A DNA stretch of 30,221 nt from a virus (IMGVR_UViG_3300006735_000139:1-30221); one strand, 5' to 3'; positions 19,010 to 23,708 are shown, counted from the first letter of the stretch. The notes: generated by a model from the letters alone, not told the origin. Program-made: numbers and translations.

Positions 19010-20466
19010 TATATTGTACCCACAACTCTTTTTTGTTTAGTGATTAAATTGAATGCACCTGAAGAGGCATCCACTTGATCTTTGTAGGTTGATGCTGGGA
19101 AGAATCGAAGCTCTTCAAGGAAATCAGAATTCCAATCTGCTTTTTTTATTGAGACATTATTTGAATTGACTTGGCTGGAGAATGGGTCAGCCCTCAATGC
19201 TTTGTCACCTGTTGGCCTGTCAGTCTTCACACGGAATCCAGCAAGCCTTCGAACGGTTGCTTCTGCTGATTCCTTGCCGCCACTTCCTGGCTCTTGTTCA
19301 AGTCCTATGATGGTTCCCTTACCATCGGCTTGTGCGGTTTGTTGAATCACCTTTTCACGCTCTGAGCTATCCCATTGCCCCCGTATGATGTCCAAAACCC
19401 AATATCGATTGTCAGCATCGACACCAATCAAAGCTCCCACCGTATAAGCTCCCGCCCCATGTGTTCCAGCCTTATCCCAAAACCGAACACGTTTCCGAAT
19501 AGATGATTCAGATGGAGCTTCATCAATCCGAATTCTCTCCACCTTAAACATTCCCCCACCGAGAGGAACAGGGTTCTGTCCATACTGACCAGAGAAACCA
19601 AACTCCCCCAACTGCATTCTCGATTGCCTCAAAATCTCTCTTGGCAATCGAACCGGATCAAACAAACCATCCACATAAAATTCAGATAGTTCTTTCGGCT
19701 TCACTTCAAATCCTTCATTCAAATCCGCCGGAAGTGAAATGTGTTTGACCTTTGCACCCTTCTTCGATTTCCCCAACCAATTACCCGTTGGATCATTCTG
19801 GTGGAGTCTTTGCATTATAAGAATTGTTGGAGTTAAAGTCTTATCCACTTTTCTGGATGGGAGCGTTTCATTCATCCATGTGTTGGCTTTTTTAATCTCT
19901 ACTTCTGACAAAACTTTTTGCGGATCAATCGGATCATCGATGATCAAGAAATGAGCATGGAAACCAACCGGAGACTTCCCACCAACCGTCACTGATTTTC
20001 TCATTCCCCCTTTTGTATTTGCAAAATATCCTTTGGTGTTTTGATCGTCTCTTAATTCTATTTCTGGAAAACATGCAGAGAATGACGGTTTGGAGTCTAC
20101 TCTATCATGGGCGGCAATGATGTCTCTGCATTTTCTGGATAAGTCCATTCCCAAATCAAAAGCATGACTTCCGCAAATGTGTCTAGCTGTTGCCATTTGT
20201 GTCCAAGTCCAAGCGGGAAAGGCAACCGAAGCAATGGTTGATTTGGTTGATGCTGGTGAGATGTTTATGATTAAATCGTAGTCTTTGGGTTTTCCTGCAA
20301 AGACTCTTTCCGCCACCTCTTGAAGTTCATTGCACAAATATTCAATGTGCCAATTCCAAACAGGGTCTTCCGGAATGATGACATCCCAAAACTCTTTGAC
20401 GAATTCAAAGAACGATTGTTTGGTTATGGATCGGACAAGATCAACTTCACTGAATGACGGATTCAA
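19009..20466 (-). CDS. terL: Terminase large subunit (packaging ATPase and nuclease)
   Basis: This 485-aa motor cuts and pumps phage DNA. The ATPase half has the P-loop position at 70-77 (SPASTKST, a variant that lacks the usual Gly before Lys) and Walker B at 174-178 (LIIDD), followed by the coupling motif around TILIMQRLHQ. The nuclease half has Asp331 (RFWDKAG), Glu390 (GLEQEPGSGG) and Asp463/Asp466 (YKDQVDASSGAF), the three RNase H-like metal ligands. Its start overlaps the Mom-like gene end by four bases. Length and motif order are normal for the family. Confidence 0.95.
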   Translation of the reverse strand: MNPSFSEVDLVRSITKQSFFEFVKEFWDVIIPEDPVWNWHIEYLCNELQEVAERVFAGKPKDYDLIINISPASTKSTIASVAFPAWTWTQMATARHICGSHAFDLGMDLSRKCRDIIAAHDRVDSKPSFSACFPEIELRDDQNTKGYFANTKGGMRKSVTVGGKSPVGFHAHFLIIDDPIDPQKVLSEVEIKKANTWMNETLPSRKVDKTLTPTILIMQRLHQNDPTGNWLGKSKKGAKVKHISLPADLNEGFEVKPKELSEFYVDGLFDPVRLPREILRQSRMQLGEFGFSGQYGQNPVPLGGGMFKVERIRIDEAPSESSIRKRVRFWDKAGTHGAGAYTVGALIGVDADNRYWVLDIIRGQWDSSEREKVIQQTAQADGKGTIIGLEQEPGSGGKESAEATVRRLAGFRVKTDRPTGDKALRADPFSSQVNSNNVSIKKADWNSDFLEELRFFPASTYKDQVDASSGAFNLITKQKRVVGTI

Positions 20467-21218
20467 TTCACTTCCCTTTTCGGATAGGGTTTTAACAGAT
20501 GGGCGATTTGCTTTTTATGATATGCTCTTTCCTTTTTACTTCCTCTAAATAAAAAGTATCTACCTTTCGAATTCTGTTTTACCTTTTCAACATTTGGATG
20601 ACGTTTCTTTATCTCTTCCAATCTGGTGGTTCCAAATTTGGCTCTCATGGCTCTGGAGCCGTACAACTTCCCATTGATCAACCATCCATCTCTGTCACCT
20701 TTTCGGCTGTTGACGTTTGGATTTGCATCTCTCATTGATCCGACATAATGAAAATTGCAGGCTTGATAGATTGTCCCTATCTCACCAGCTAAATCATCAA
20801 CGGTTGAAGTAATGACTTTGTATTTCTCTGGGAGCATCTTGATGGATGATGTGATCAATTTGGATGCTGAGTGTGGGTGTGCCCAATGGATGCAAACACC
20901 TCTTGAAAGAAGAATGATCTTACCCGTGAAATCGTATTTGTCCCACCGACCAAGATTCTCTATGTACTCTGGAGAGTAGCAGACCACACCACCACAAATG
21001 CCCTCCCAAAAGATGCCAAAACAATATTTGACGATAGCAGGCATACAACCAAGCCATTCATATTTTTCAACAATGAGCTTTGCCGTTTTGCGATCAATGG
21101 GTTTGACTTCAGCTTTTTTAATATCGGTATCAATGGACTCCCACCAAGCACCAAACAGATTCTCACCGGCTTCTACTTTCTGGAAATGCTCCCTCATCAA
21201 TCGCTGGTGAGCTTTCAT
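20463..21218 (-). CDS. Mom-like DNA modification protein (GNAT-type acyltransferase fold)
   Basis: This 251-aa protein resembles phage Mu Mom, which converts adenine in DNA to N6-carbamoylmethyladenine and so blocks many restriction enzymes. The family pattern is clear: KYEWLGCMPAIVKYCFGIFW (residues 52-71), GGVVCYS (76-82), LSRGVCIHWAHPHSASKLI (104-122), then ADDLAGEIGTIYQACNF-type segment at about 140-156 and a Trp-Leu-Ile-Asn-Gly-Lys-Leu motif at 179-185. The C-terminal 60 residues are very basic, suited to DNA contact. Its ATG overlaps the 50-aa upstream gene (ATGA), and its stop overlaps terminase. The modified base cannot be read from sequence. Confidence 0.82.
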   Translation of the reverse strand: MKAHQRLMREHFQKVEAGENLFGAWWESIDTDIKKAEVKPIDRKTAKLIVEKYEWLGCMPAIVKYCFGIFWEGICGGVVCYSPEYIENLGRWDKYDFTGKIILLSRGVCIHWAHPHSASKLITSSIKMLPEKYKVITSTVDDLAGEIGTIYQACNFHYVGSMRDANPNVNSRKGDRDGWLINGKLYGSRAMRAKFGTTRLEEIKKRHPNVEKVKQNSKGRYFLFRGSKKERAYHKKQIAHLLKPYPKREVN

Positions 21219-21367
21219 TTCACAACCTTGATTGGGAGTTTCTGTTCTACCAGCTTTTGATACTTCTCAATATTGGATTCACGAAGTTCTTTTCTGAGCT
21301 TTCGAATCTTTCGCTTCTTTGTGACATCAAGAAAGAAATCACCGTATCGAATTATTTTTTCATTCAT
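21215..21367 (-). CDS. 50-aa basic protein coupled to the Mom-like gene
   Basis: This minus-strand frame starts at the ATG at 21367, inside the last codons of the DUF3310 gene (8-base overlap), and stops in an ATGA overlap with the Mom-like start. It is strongly basic and helical, with a segment DVTKKRKIRKLRKELRES, and could bind RNA or DNA. Mu controls mom translation through the small Com protein; this gene has the same place but no zinc-finger cysteines, so it is not a Com homolog by sequence. Tight overlaps on both sides favour a real gene. Confidence 0.65.
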   Translation of the reverse strand: MNEKIIRYGDFFLDVTKKRKIRKLRKELRESNIEKYQKLVEQKLPIKVVK

Positions 21368-21827
21368 ACCACTGCCTATAGTTCTTTAAGATCATTTTCA
21401 GATTTGATTCGCATTCATAAAGAATCTCAATCTTGTTTGTGAATTTATGTTTCTGGATAAGCAAAACAGATTCAGTTTCCAGATGATTGAGATTCAACAA
21501 AATACAATAGTGAATTGCCTCTTCACGTTTGGTTTGCTGGTCTTGTTCAGATAGAAATTGAGGCTCATCATACCAATCATCATGATTATCAATCATCAAT
21601 TGAACGTACCGAACAGATTTTTCAACATCTTCGATTCCGTTTTTGAATCTATGCCGCATCACATATTTGGAAACATTCCCTTCACAATTATCAAAGCCCA
21701 ATGCCATGATGACATTGATCACTTCAATCTTTCCGTGATTGTAATGGAGAGGTACATTCACCGGATCATAAGAAGAAGCCGATGGAACGTTAGTTTCACC
21801 GGCTTCTGAATAGGCGTGTTCGTCCAT
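21360..21827 (-). CDS. DUF3310 protein with C-terminal extension
   Basis: This 155-aa protein contains the DUF3310 signature at residues about 18-85: SYDPVNVPLHYNHGKIEVIN, then FDNCEGNVSKYVMRHRFKNG, then EDVEKSVRYVQLMID. This family is widespread in phages, often annotated as a nucleotide kinase-like or replication-associated protein, but its activity is unresolved. Here the C-terminal 65 residues after the family domain are helical and not part of the usual length. The start shares its A with the stop of the 34-aa gene (TAATG). Confidence 0.85.
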   Translation of the reverse strand: MDEHAYSEAGETNVPSASSYDPVNVPLHYNHGKIEVINVIMALGFDNCEGNVSKYVMRHRFKNGIEDVEKSVRYVQLMIDNHDDWYDEPQFLSEQDQQTKREEAIHYCILLNLNHLETESVLLIQKHKFTNKIEILYECESNLKMILKNYRQWYE

Positions 21828-21931
21828 TACTTTTTCCGCTTCTTCTTTTTGGTTGTCTTGGCTTTGGCTTTCTTTGCCGCCGCTTTACCTGATTTAGTGT
21901 ATGGATATTTCTTTCCAGCTACTCTTGGCAT
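21827..21931 (-). CDS. 34-aa Lys/Ala-rich basic protein
   Basis: The minus-strand frame starts with MPRVAGKKYPYTKSGKAAAK and ends in a Lys/Arg run, 34 aa in all. A 'MPR-x-x-G-K-K-x-P-Y-T-x-x-G' start is a recurring small phage protein whose function is unknown; the basic tail suggests DNA binding. AGGA lies about nine bases upstream of the ATG, and the stop overlaps the DUF3310 start (TAATG). The recurring pattern and overlap make this a likely true gene in spite of its size. Confidence 0.8.
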   Translation of the reverse strand: MPRVAGKKYPYTKSGKAAAKKAKAKTTKKKKRKK

Positions 21932-22004
21932 TTGCTCAGTTCCTTTAATTGATATAAACAAAACGAAAGGGAACAGATAAACGACACAATGATTATCGTG
22001 TTCA

Positions 22005-22433
22005 TCAATTTTCCATTTCCCTTGCTACTCTAATTCTACGATTCCACATCCTAACAGCAATCTTTTTTTCTGGTGCAAATGGGCCATCAGTGCCGCACAC
22101 ATTGCACGCACACCAAAAAACTTCTGTTGCATCCTCTCCCATGATCTCAAGTCCTTCACCAGCCTCACCACAAAACGGGCAGGCTCTCAAGCAAAACGGT
22201 TTCAAATGCTCTTGCCCCTCTGAGCTTCCAAAATCTATTCCTGCAATTCTATTGATCATTCTTTTGTTCCACTTGCTAATTGAATGTTTGAAATTTTTAG
22301 CAGTGGGGCCGCTACACTTACACCAAATACAAGCCAACCAATTTTCATCATCATCTTGAAACAAATCAACAAAACGATGACCGCAAAACGGACAATTCTT
22401 ATTAATTAGAAATCGAGATTTTGCTTTGGTCAT
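22005..22433 (-). CDS. Tandem Lar-type zinc-ribbon protein (restriction alleviation-like)
   Basis: This 142-aa protein is two copies of the Lar-type module. Module 1 has Cys14-Pro-Phe-Cys17-Gly, a Cys35-x-x-Cys38 pair, SGP, and an Ala...Trp-Asn motif. Module 2 has Cys85-Pro-Phe-Cys88-Gly, Cys110-x-x-Cys113, DGP and AVRMWNRR. Lar of Rac prophage eases type I restriction; the many phage relatives are usually assumed to do likewise, though few are tested. It overlaps the end of the small terminase gene by 32 bases and lies a few genes upstream of the Mom-like gene, so the operon may carry two anti-restriction steps. Confidence 0.82.
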   Translation of the reverse strand: MTKAKSRFLINKNCPFCGHRFVDLFQDDDENWLACIWCKCSGPTAKNFKHSISKWNKRMINRIAGIDFGSSEGQEHLKPFCLRACPFCGEAGEGLEIMGEDATEVFWCACNVCGTDGPFAPEKKIAVRMWNRRIRVAREMEN

Positions 22434-23157
22434 TCTCTCGATTCCTGATCCTGATCGCTTTCAAAATTTCACGTTTGGTTTCTATGCTCAAATTCAATTC
22501 ATCAACTGAAATGTGAGCGTGAATGTGTTCATGAGTTACCGCACCCTCAACACTCAATTCTATCTTGTCGTTGTATCCTCTGTCTTTGTTAAATGTTTTG
22601 TTAACAAAAATGGTTGCCGATGAATCACCACCCGCAACCAATCCGACAAGAGCGGCTTCAAAGAAGTTCTTTTTGTGTTCGTGGATTTCATTCATGAGTT
22701 CACCAAACTCAGGTTCATGCGTCACCCAATTTTCAAAAGTCTTTCGGCTCATGTTCATCATGGAGCAAGCACGACTGACATTGAAATTGGAAGTGACAAG
22801 AGCATGAAGAAACAAATGTTGCCTCCCACGCTTTCCGGCTCCCTTCAACAATGCTTCAGTTCTTTCGATTGCATTTTCTTTGTGTTCAACATCTTGGATT
22901 TCATGCCAGATCGAACGAAGCTCTTGAGGCAATTTTTGATAGATGTATTCATGAAAATTCTGAGCCGTTGCCATTGGCGTTTGATCGCTCTTGGCTCTAT
23001 CAATCGCAAACTTCAAAGCAGGCTTTTCTGATTTCCATTTTCGAAGTGTGACCGTTGAGACTCCAAGAGATTGAGCCATCTTGATTTCACTCATTCCCGA
23101 CTTGGCAAGCTCATACGCAAGAACATAATTTTCATCTTTCCATACTGATTTCGGCAT
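22402..23157 (-). CDS. terS: Small terminase subunit-like HTH DNA-binding protein
   Basis: This 251-aa protein has two helix-turn-helix segments: residues about 12-42 (LAKSGMSEIKMAQSLGVSTV then TLRKWK) and about 118-150 (NFNVSRACSMMNMSRKTFEN). These are followed by a helix FFEAALVGLVAGG and FVNKTFNKDRGYNDK, the C-terminal pattern of phage small terminases that recognise the packaging site. It is the first gene of the packaging operon. An inverted repeat (23168-23192) precedes its start, and it could be autoregulatory. A plain transcription regulator is the main alternative, but position a few genes before terL supports terminase. Confidence 0.75.
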   Translation of the reverse strand: MPKSVWKDENYVLAYELAKSGMSEIKMAQSLGVSTVTLRKWKSEKPALKFAIDRAKSDQTPMATAQNFHEYIYQKLPQELRSIWHEIQDVEHKENAIERTEALLKGAGKRGRQHLFLHALVTSNFNVSRACSMMNMSRKTFENWVTHEPEFGELMNEIHEHKKNFFEAALVGLVAGGDSSATIFVNKTFNKDRGYNDKIELSVEGAVTHEHIHAHISVDELNLSIETKREILKAIRIRNRENDQSKISISN

Positions 23158-23192: not shown

Positions 23193-23245
23193 CAAAAATC
23201 ACGGTTGAATACAACGCTTACAACATCCAAAAGAAAAGCAAAAAA

Positions 23246-23330
23246 ATTGCAGATTAGCTATTGCAAAGCTCTTATTCGTTCGATATATTACATATATAAG
23301 AATTAAACATTACTTCAAACACGAAAGCAA
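23246..23330 (+). promoter_or_regulatory. Early-type promoter element, copy B
   Basis: The -35 is TTGCAA (23261-23266), the spacer is 17 bases, and the -10 is TATATT (23284-23289). Half-sites TCTTAT (23270-23275) and ATAAGA (23296-23301) flank the -10. The TGCAGATT box upstream and the leader CAAACACGAAAGCAAA match copies A and C. Confidence 0.88.
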
Positions 23331-23583: not shown

Positions 23584-23616
23584 TGAGCAAGTTTCAAAAC
23601 TGCTCAAAACTTTTTT
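23584..23616 (+). terminator. Terminator between the two small early genes
   Basis: The bases TGAGCAAGTTT and AAAACTGCTCA pair with one bulged A, followed by a run of six T's (23611-23616). A near-identical hairpin follows the next gene (23936-23961), so the unit has been copied together with its promoter. Confidence 0.8.
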
Positions 23617-23623
23617 CAAAAAA

Positions 23624-23708
23624 TGCAGATTTTACTATTGCAATATTCTTATCGTGTCGATATATTAACTATATAAGAATTAAACATTACTCAAACACGA
23701 AAGCAAAA
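23624..23708 (+). promoter_or_regulatory. Early-type promoter element, copy C
   Basis: The -35 is TTGCAA (23638-23643), the spacer is 17 bases, and the -10 is TATATT (23661-23666). Here the flanking inverted repeat is eight bases and perfect: ATTCTTAT (23645-23652) and ATAAGAAT (23673-23680). The TGCAGATT box and CAAACACGAAAGCAAA leader match copies A and B. It begins eight bases after the preceding terminator. Confidence 0.88.

Follow-up and report, generated by a model that had tools for sequence, protein, structure and literature searches.

The stretch of DNA studied here, called the window below, is a viral record of 30,221 bases (IMGVR_UViG_3300006735_000139:1-30221) from a marine phage. 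Its packaging operon contains, between the genes of the small and large terminase subunits (terS and terL), a gene for a Mom-family protein and another for a protein with two Lar-type zinc ribbons in tandem. An earlier note, made from the sequence alone, had located these two genes correctly; both are on the minus strand. Three further genes that it did not list were also found between terS and terL, a 34-residue basic open reading frame (ORF), a gene for a DUF3310 protein, and a 50-residue ORF (Table 1).

The product of the Mom-like gene is a true Mom-family protein, and we consider this call to be solid. It reached 78.7 bits against the Pfam Mom family (PF25680, cut-off 27.1) over residues 37-247, and phrog_1384 matches it with an E value of 2.5e-24. 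When the PDB was searched with the window protein alone, the Mom of phage Mu (8bv8) was a weak match, E 0.085. A profile that included Mu Mom (A1) made this match trivial, and a profile of 23 relatives without any Mu sequence (A2) was used in its place; it retrieved 8bv8 across 213 residues with an E value of 1.7e-6. The structure was predicted with AlphaFold, where a run on the single sequence (predicted local distance difference test, pLDDT, 38) was superseded by a run on a 48-row alignment (pLDDT 88.8, predicted template modelling score 0.83). The fold of this model is that of Mom and not a different one: its top match in the PDB was 8bv8 (Foldseek E 4.8e-12), and VIA-align gave Z 16.7 and 3.2 Å across 185 residues, as compared to Z 12.5 for the next GNAT. 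The title of the 8bv8 entry describes the inactive mutant S124A, and Mu S124 is aligned to S119 of the window protein. This serine, together with R106, D141, and Y151, was invariant in 48 homologues (in Mu the four residues are R111, S124, D149, and Y159). The ratio of nonsynonymous to synonymous substitution rates (dN/dS) between the window and the related contig L005 was 0.05 for Mom, close to terL (0.08) and the DUF3310 gene (0.06), which implies a strong constraint on the enzyme. The Mom-like identity proposed in the earlier note is thus borne out by the profiles, the predicted fold, the invariant active-site residues, and the selection on the gene.

Table 1. Genes of the packaging operon in the window, listed from the first gene of the operon.
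Feature	Position	Strand	Support
terS, terminase small subunit, 251 aa, first operon gene	22402..23157	-	phrog_309 E 7e-13, phrog_4044 E 2e-7
Lar-like tandem zinc-ribbon protein, 142 aa	22005..22433	-	TIGR03655 61.8 bits, PF14354 two stretches
34-aa lysine-rich basic ORF, MPRVAGKKYPYTKSGK...	21827..21931	-	DNA-level conservation in relatives; aligned in L004, L078, L079
DUF3310 protein, 155 aa, PHROGs label nucleotide-kinase-like	21360..21827	-	PF11753 45.7 bits, phrog_236 E 2e-19
50-aa ORF, 4-nt overlap with Mom	21215..21367	-	in window, L002, L003; not in L004/L005
Mom-family GNAT-fold protein, predicted DNA-modification enzyme, 251 aa, 4-nt overlap with terL	20463..21218	-	PF25680 78.7 bits; fold match 8bv8
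terL, terminase large subunit, 485 aa	19009..20466	-	phrog_38 E 6e-76; TIGR01630 68.4 bits

The genes of this region share a strand and either overlap or leave almost no gap, which is consistent with a single operon. Downstream of terL follow a 91-residue ORF, a metallophosphoesterase gene, and the portal gene, the last confirmed by profile matches, and terS was upstream of terL in every related contig that reaches that far. The gene order recurs in the independent record L003 and, minus the 50-residue ORF, in L004 and L005, and an order shared with independent records rules out an assembly artefact. Elsewhere in the window, two promoter-like stretches of similar sequence (TTGCAA-17-TATATT, then ATAAGAATTAAACATTACT) are found at 23240-23330 and 23610-23700, each of which precedes a small ORF on the plus strand.

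Sister contigs show that Mom is a separate, movable gene, gained or lost as a single gene. L081, L083, L084, L085, and L086, with terL proteins 82-85% identical, have the order terS-Lar-DUF3310-terL without Mom. The empty site can be seen in L079 (the same record as L084), where DUF3310 runs directly into the start of terL, the place where the window and L004 hold Mom. No Mom was found elsewhere in the four Mom-less sister records that were searched, though these records may be incomplete. In a tree of 57 terL proteins, the contigs with both Mom and Lar (support 99/96) were sister to the contigs with Lar only (100/97), and L087, L088, and L108, which have neither gene, formed the next group as outgroup. 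The shortest history is that Lar was gained once and Mom once thereafter, and an earlier gain of Mom followed by a single loss in the Lar-only clade could also have given this pattern. Related Mom genes, 55-70% identical, were found in many unrelated phages, mostly amid replication and recombination genes such as those of RusA, HNH, and primase or polymerase. In the Mom-less sister contigs, terL is also separated from the gene that follows it by an array of tandem repeats, about 0.75 kb long (L079 10650-11410), with units of 31 and 62 nucleotides, CTACATTTGCGG-like, and this array is absent from the window.

The second gene named in the earlier note does encode a tandem Lar-type protein. It passed two Lar profiles, TIGR03655 with 61.8 bits (cut-off 39.6) and PF14354 with 42.7 bits in two stretches (cut-off 28.6), and its ribbons are at about residues 11-58 and 82-133. 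The zinc-ribbon cysteines and the WN.R motif occur in each of the two ribbons, and all seven relatives have them as well. The gene has a 32-nucleotide overlap with the end of terS and is found in sisters with and without Mom alike. With 12.8 bits (E 0.14) the protein missed the cut-off of the RalR equivalog model NF007260 (113 bits), and a sequence search of the PDB gave no match for it. The dN/dS was 0.29 for the whole gene, 0.51 for the N-terminal ribbon, and 0.15 for the rest of the protein; the first ribbon (window 22282-22403) is 52% identical between close relatives, as compared to 84% for the rest and 91-96% for the neighbouring genes. A Com-like role, where the ribbon activates the translation of Mom, was rejected as the main role since the gene persists in Mom-less phages, and no Com model was among the Pfam matches of the protein.

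What did not hold as well is the anti-restriction role, which the earlier note had taken over with the family name. Lar and RalR are the same gene (PMC11318856), and RalR cleaves DNA in vitro (PMC4147584) and is itself recognised by the Lar profiles; its annotation in E. coli K-12 is that of an endodeoxyribonuclease toxin. A founder annotated as a DNase toxin makes the restriction alleviation label weak evidence for the function of the Lar-like protein, and the same applies in general where zinc ribbons of phages are named "Lar-like restriction alleviation protein". The protein probably binds nucleic acid. It is quite conceivable, if somewhat short of an even chance, that it has no anti-restriction role and serves packaging or host takeover as an accessory factor that binds nucleic acid or nicks DNA, and the DNA cutting by RalR, the tight overlap with terS, and the retention of the gene between terS and terL independently of Mom all point in that direction. 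HNH nucleases are often found beside terminases, which would also suit an accessory of this kind. However, the Lar-like protein and RalR have only the four cysteines and the WN.R positions in common, at 25-30% identity, the RalR-specific model gave the poor match mentioned above, and the Lar-like protein is a tandem whereas RalR is not.

A less probable possibility, although still one to consider, is that the Lar-like protein alleviates type I restriction in the manner of Rac Lar, by raising the methylation of incoming DNA. The family assignment would agree with this, and a rapidly changing N-terminal ribbon would fit a host-facing role. In the passages of later papers that describe it, the Lar of the Rac prophage is reported to relieve restriction and strengthen modification (King and Murray 1995, via PMC3915230; PMC6158711). 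On the other hand, the function is known for distant members only, in a zinc-ribbon family that is very broad, and one would hardly expect a protector of incoming DNA in a late packaging operon, as the time of packaging is the wrong moment for guarding it.

The link between Mom and the packaging genes, which the earlier note had drawn for the window, is real there as regards position, and it appears plausible and somewhat broader than was realised at the time. In L124, Mom is three genes upstream of terL, and in L040, L041, and L046 a second, stronger Mom (137.9 bits) is directly before terS and terL. This second subfamily recurs just upstream of different terminases in the order ParB-Mom-terS-terL (L041:4991-7332 and 80 related loci, L162-L239). 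A ParB-like gene was directly upstream of Mom in 74 of the 81 loci, and terL was at most four genes away in 65 of the 77 loci that have at least two downstream genes, with a median gap of 396 nucleotides. The terminases vary between these loci (terL phrog_2 and phrog_15; terS phrog_309, phrog_1595/51, and phrog_57). The 81 loci were found by similarity to one Mom protein, and they represent a single Mom subfamily whose terminases vary; they were not sampled at random. A further match of the ParB-like protein is to the N-terminal part of phrog_498, a family with the label DNA methyltransferase, which suggests that Mom may stand in for the methylase in a known ParB-methylase arrangement. A limited, small literature search found no description of the ParB-Mom-terS-terL order.

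It may be, and we put this forward tentatively as the less probable case, that the position next to the terminase is a general slot for marking DNA as it is packaged, which different Mom subfamilies have reached independently beside unrelated terminases, either in front of terS and behind a ParB-like gene, or between the two terminase genes. The cause would perhaps be that the modification is coupled to packaging, in time or physically, and is harmful earlier. Two other arrangements of Mom were seen among the contigs. L019 (7947-9717) has a tandem pair of adjacent Mom-family genes of different subfamilies, the second encoding 325 residues with a 51.4-bit Mom match, and in L065 (669-2447) and L066 (881-2599) the Mom homologues are inside far longer ORFs (592 and 572 residues), possibly as fusions to another domain.

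The explanation that we favour, and regard as likely, is that the window encodes a working Mom-type enzyme which entered an older packaging operon as a single-gene insertion, and that the Lar-like gene is a separate accessory. The Mom protein, as a relative of the GNAT-fold acyltransferases, would most likely modify adenines of the phage's own DNA, and the restriction enzymes of the next host would then cut this DNA poorly. The gene would have been acquired where DUF3310 and terL meet, at a time when terS, Lar, and DUF3310 were already in place in the operon, and the 50-residue ORF would have joined it later, in the lineage of the window. Placed in the packaging operon, the enzyme would probably be made shortly before the genomes are packaged. 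The Lar-like gene, in turn, would be the older accessory, translationally coupled to terS.

Some observations weigh against a working, packaging-timed enzyme of the Mu type. The identity between the window Mom and Mu Mom is about 20% (47 of 232 aligned residues), which implies that the donor and the target sequence may differ. In a promoter scan, shuffled sequence scored as well as the operon did. The Mom genes of the window subfamily are mostly in replication and recombination regions and not beside the terminase, and packaging timing therefore does not hold for the subfamily as a whole. The last of these points concerns the avoidance of palindromes, which suggests past exposure of the lineage to type II restriction. 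In the window, 6-base palindromes had an observed/expected ratio of 0.61 (1.006 with a standard deviation of 0.026 for non-palindromic controls); GCGC was found 0 times with 23.5 expected and AAGCTT 0 times with 16.2 expected, and CGCG was also absent. The ratio was 0.51-0.71 in Mom-less sisters, and its median was 0.68 in 58 related or Mom-bearing loci; strong avoidance was noted in the sister records G002, G005, G006, and G007. Avoidance in the window is as strong as in the sisters without Mom, and the genome gives no sign of relief by Mom. The target of Mu Mom is SASNY, and a comparison of adenine-free, adenine-containing, and SASNY-containing palindromes showed no visible relaxation, with small counts and one Mom-bearing lineage. 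Unrelaxed avoidance would fit a recent gain of Mom, partial modification, or different targets.

A GNAT fold is common to many acetyltransferases, and this and the low identity to Mu Mom would allow the window protein to be a GNAT enzyme with another substrate, such as a protein, a tRNA, or a small molecule. We find this improbable, as the match to Mu Mom is far above that to other GNATs and extends across the whole core and the C-terminal YPK tail, and the catalytic serine is invariant in the Mom homologues. Still more improbable is the combined anti-restriction module of the earlier note, here taken as a pair under joint selection in which Mom would hide adenines from type II enzymes and Lar would relieve type I restriction: the two genes are indeed inside about 2 kb of one operon in all Mom-bearing relatives that reach that far (L003, L004, and L005), but the sister clade keeps Lar without Mom and by itself largely refutes the module, none of 100 other Mom-bearing contigs, many of them fragments, had a Lar match above the cut-off, so that the pair was not found together across independent lineages, DUF3310 and other genes separate the two, and the selection on Mom and Lar is unlike (dN/dS 0.05 and 0.29). 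The Lar-like gene is rather an independent, older neighbour of Mom.

If Mom works as in Mu, adenine hypermodification would extend through uncultured aquatic phages and, in several lineages, be linked to the packaging genes. The comparison between sisters with and without Mom would then make the packaging-timed masking of DNA testable.

The nearest isolated phages by terL are Croceibacter phage P2559Y and Cellulophaga phage phi17:1 (40-46% identity), and tblastn gave no Mom match in their records. Lar/RalR of the E. coli Rac prophage (b1348) has the same CPFC...C..C...WN.R zinc ribbon as the window protein, which differs in being a two-ribbon tandem of 142 residues, about 25-30% identical per ribbon, and in its place in a packaging operon. 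The ParB-Mom-terS-terL contigs (L041 and relatives) are like the window in that a Mom-family gene is directly beside the terminase genes, but their Mom is of the other subfamily and lies upstream of terS, after the ParB-like gene, and the terminases are different. The closest known counterpart is the Mom of phage Mu (NP_050657.1; 8bv8; PF25680), with which the window protein has in common the GNAT-type fold, the invariant R/S/D/Y residues, the YQA.NF motif, and the C-terminal YPK. Mu mom is a late-expressed gene at the right end of the genome, in contrast to the position inside terS-terL in the window. There is no overlapping com at the window Mom, the upstream 50-residue ORF being without cysteine, and the 300 nucleotides upstream contain one GATC, as compared to five in Mu. 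The overlapping com and the GATC cluster are traits of Mu's operon and not of the Mom family, and the window case is a further Mom of a known family, in a somewhat unusual place.

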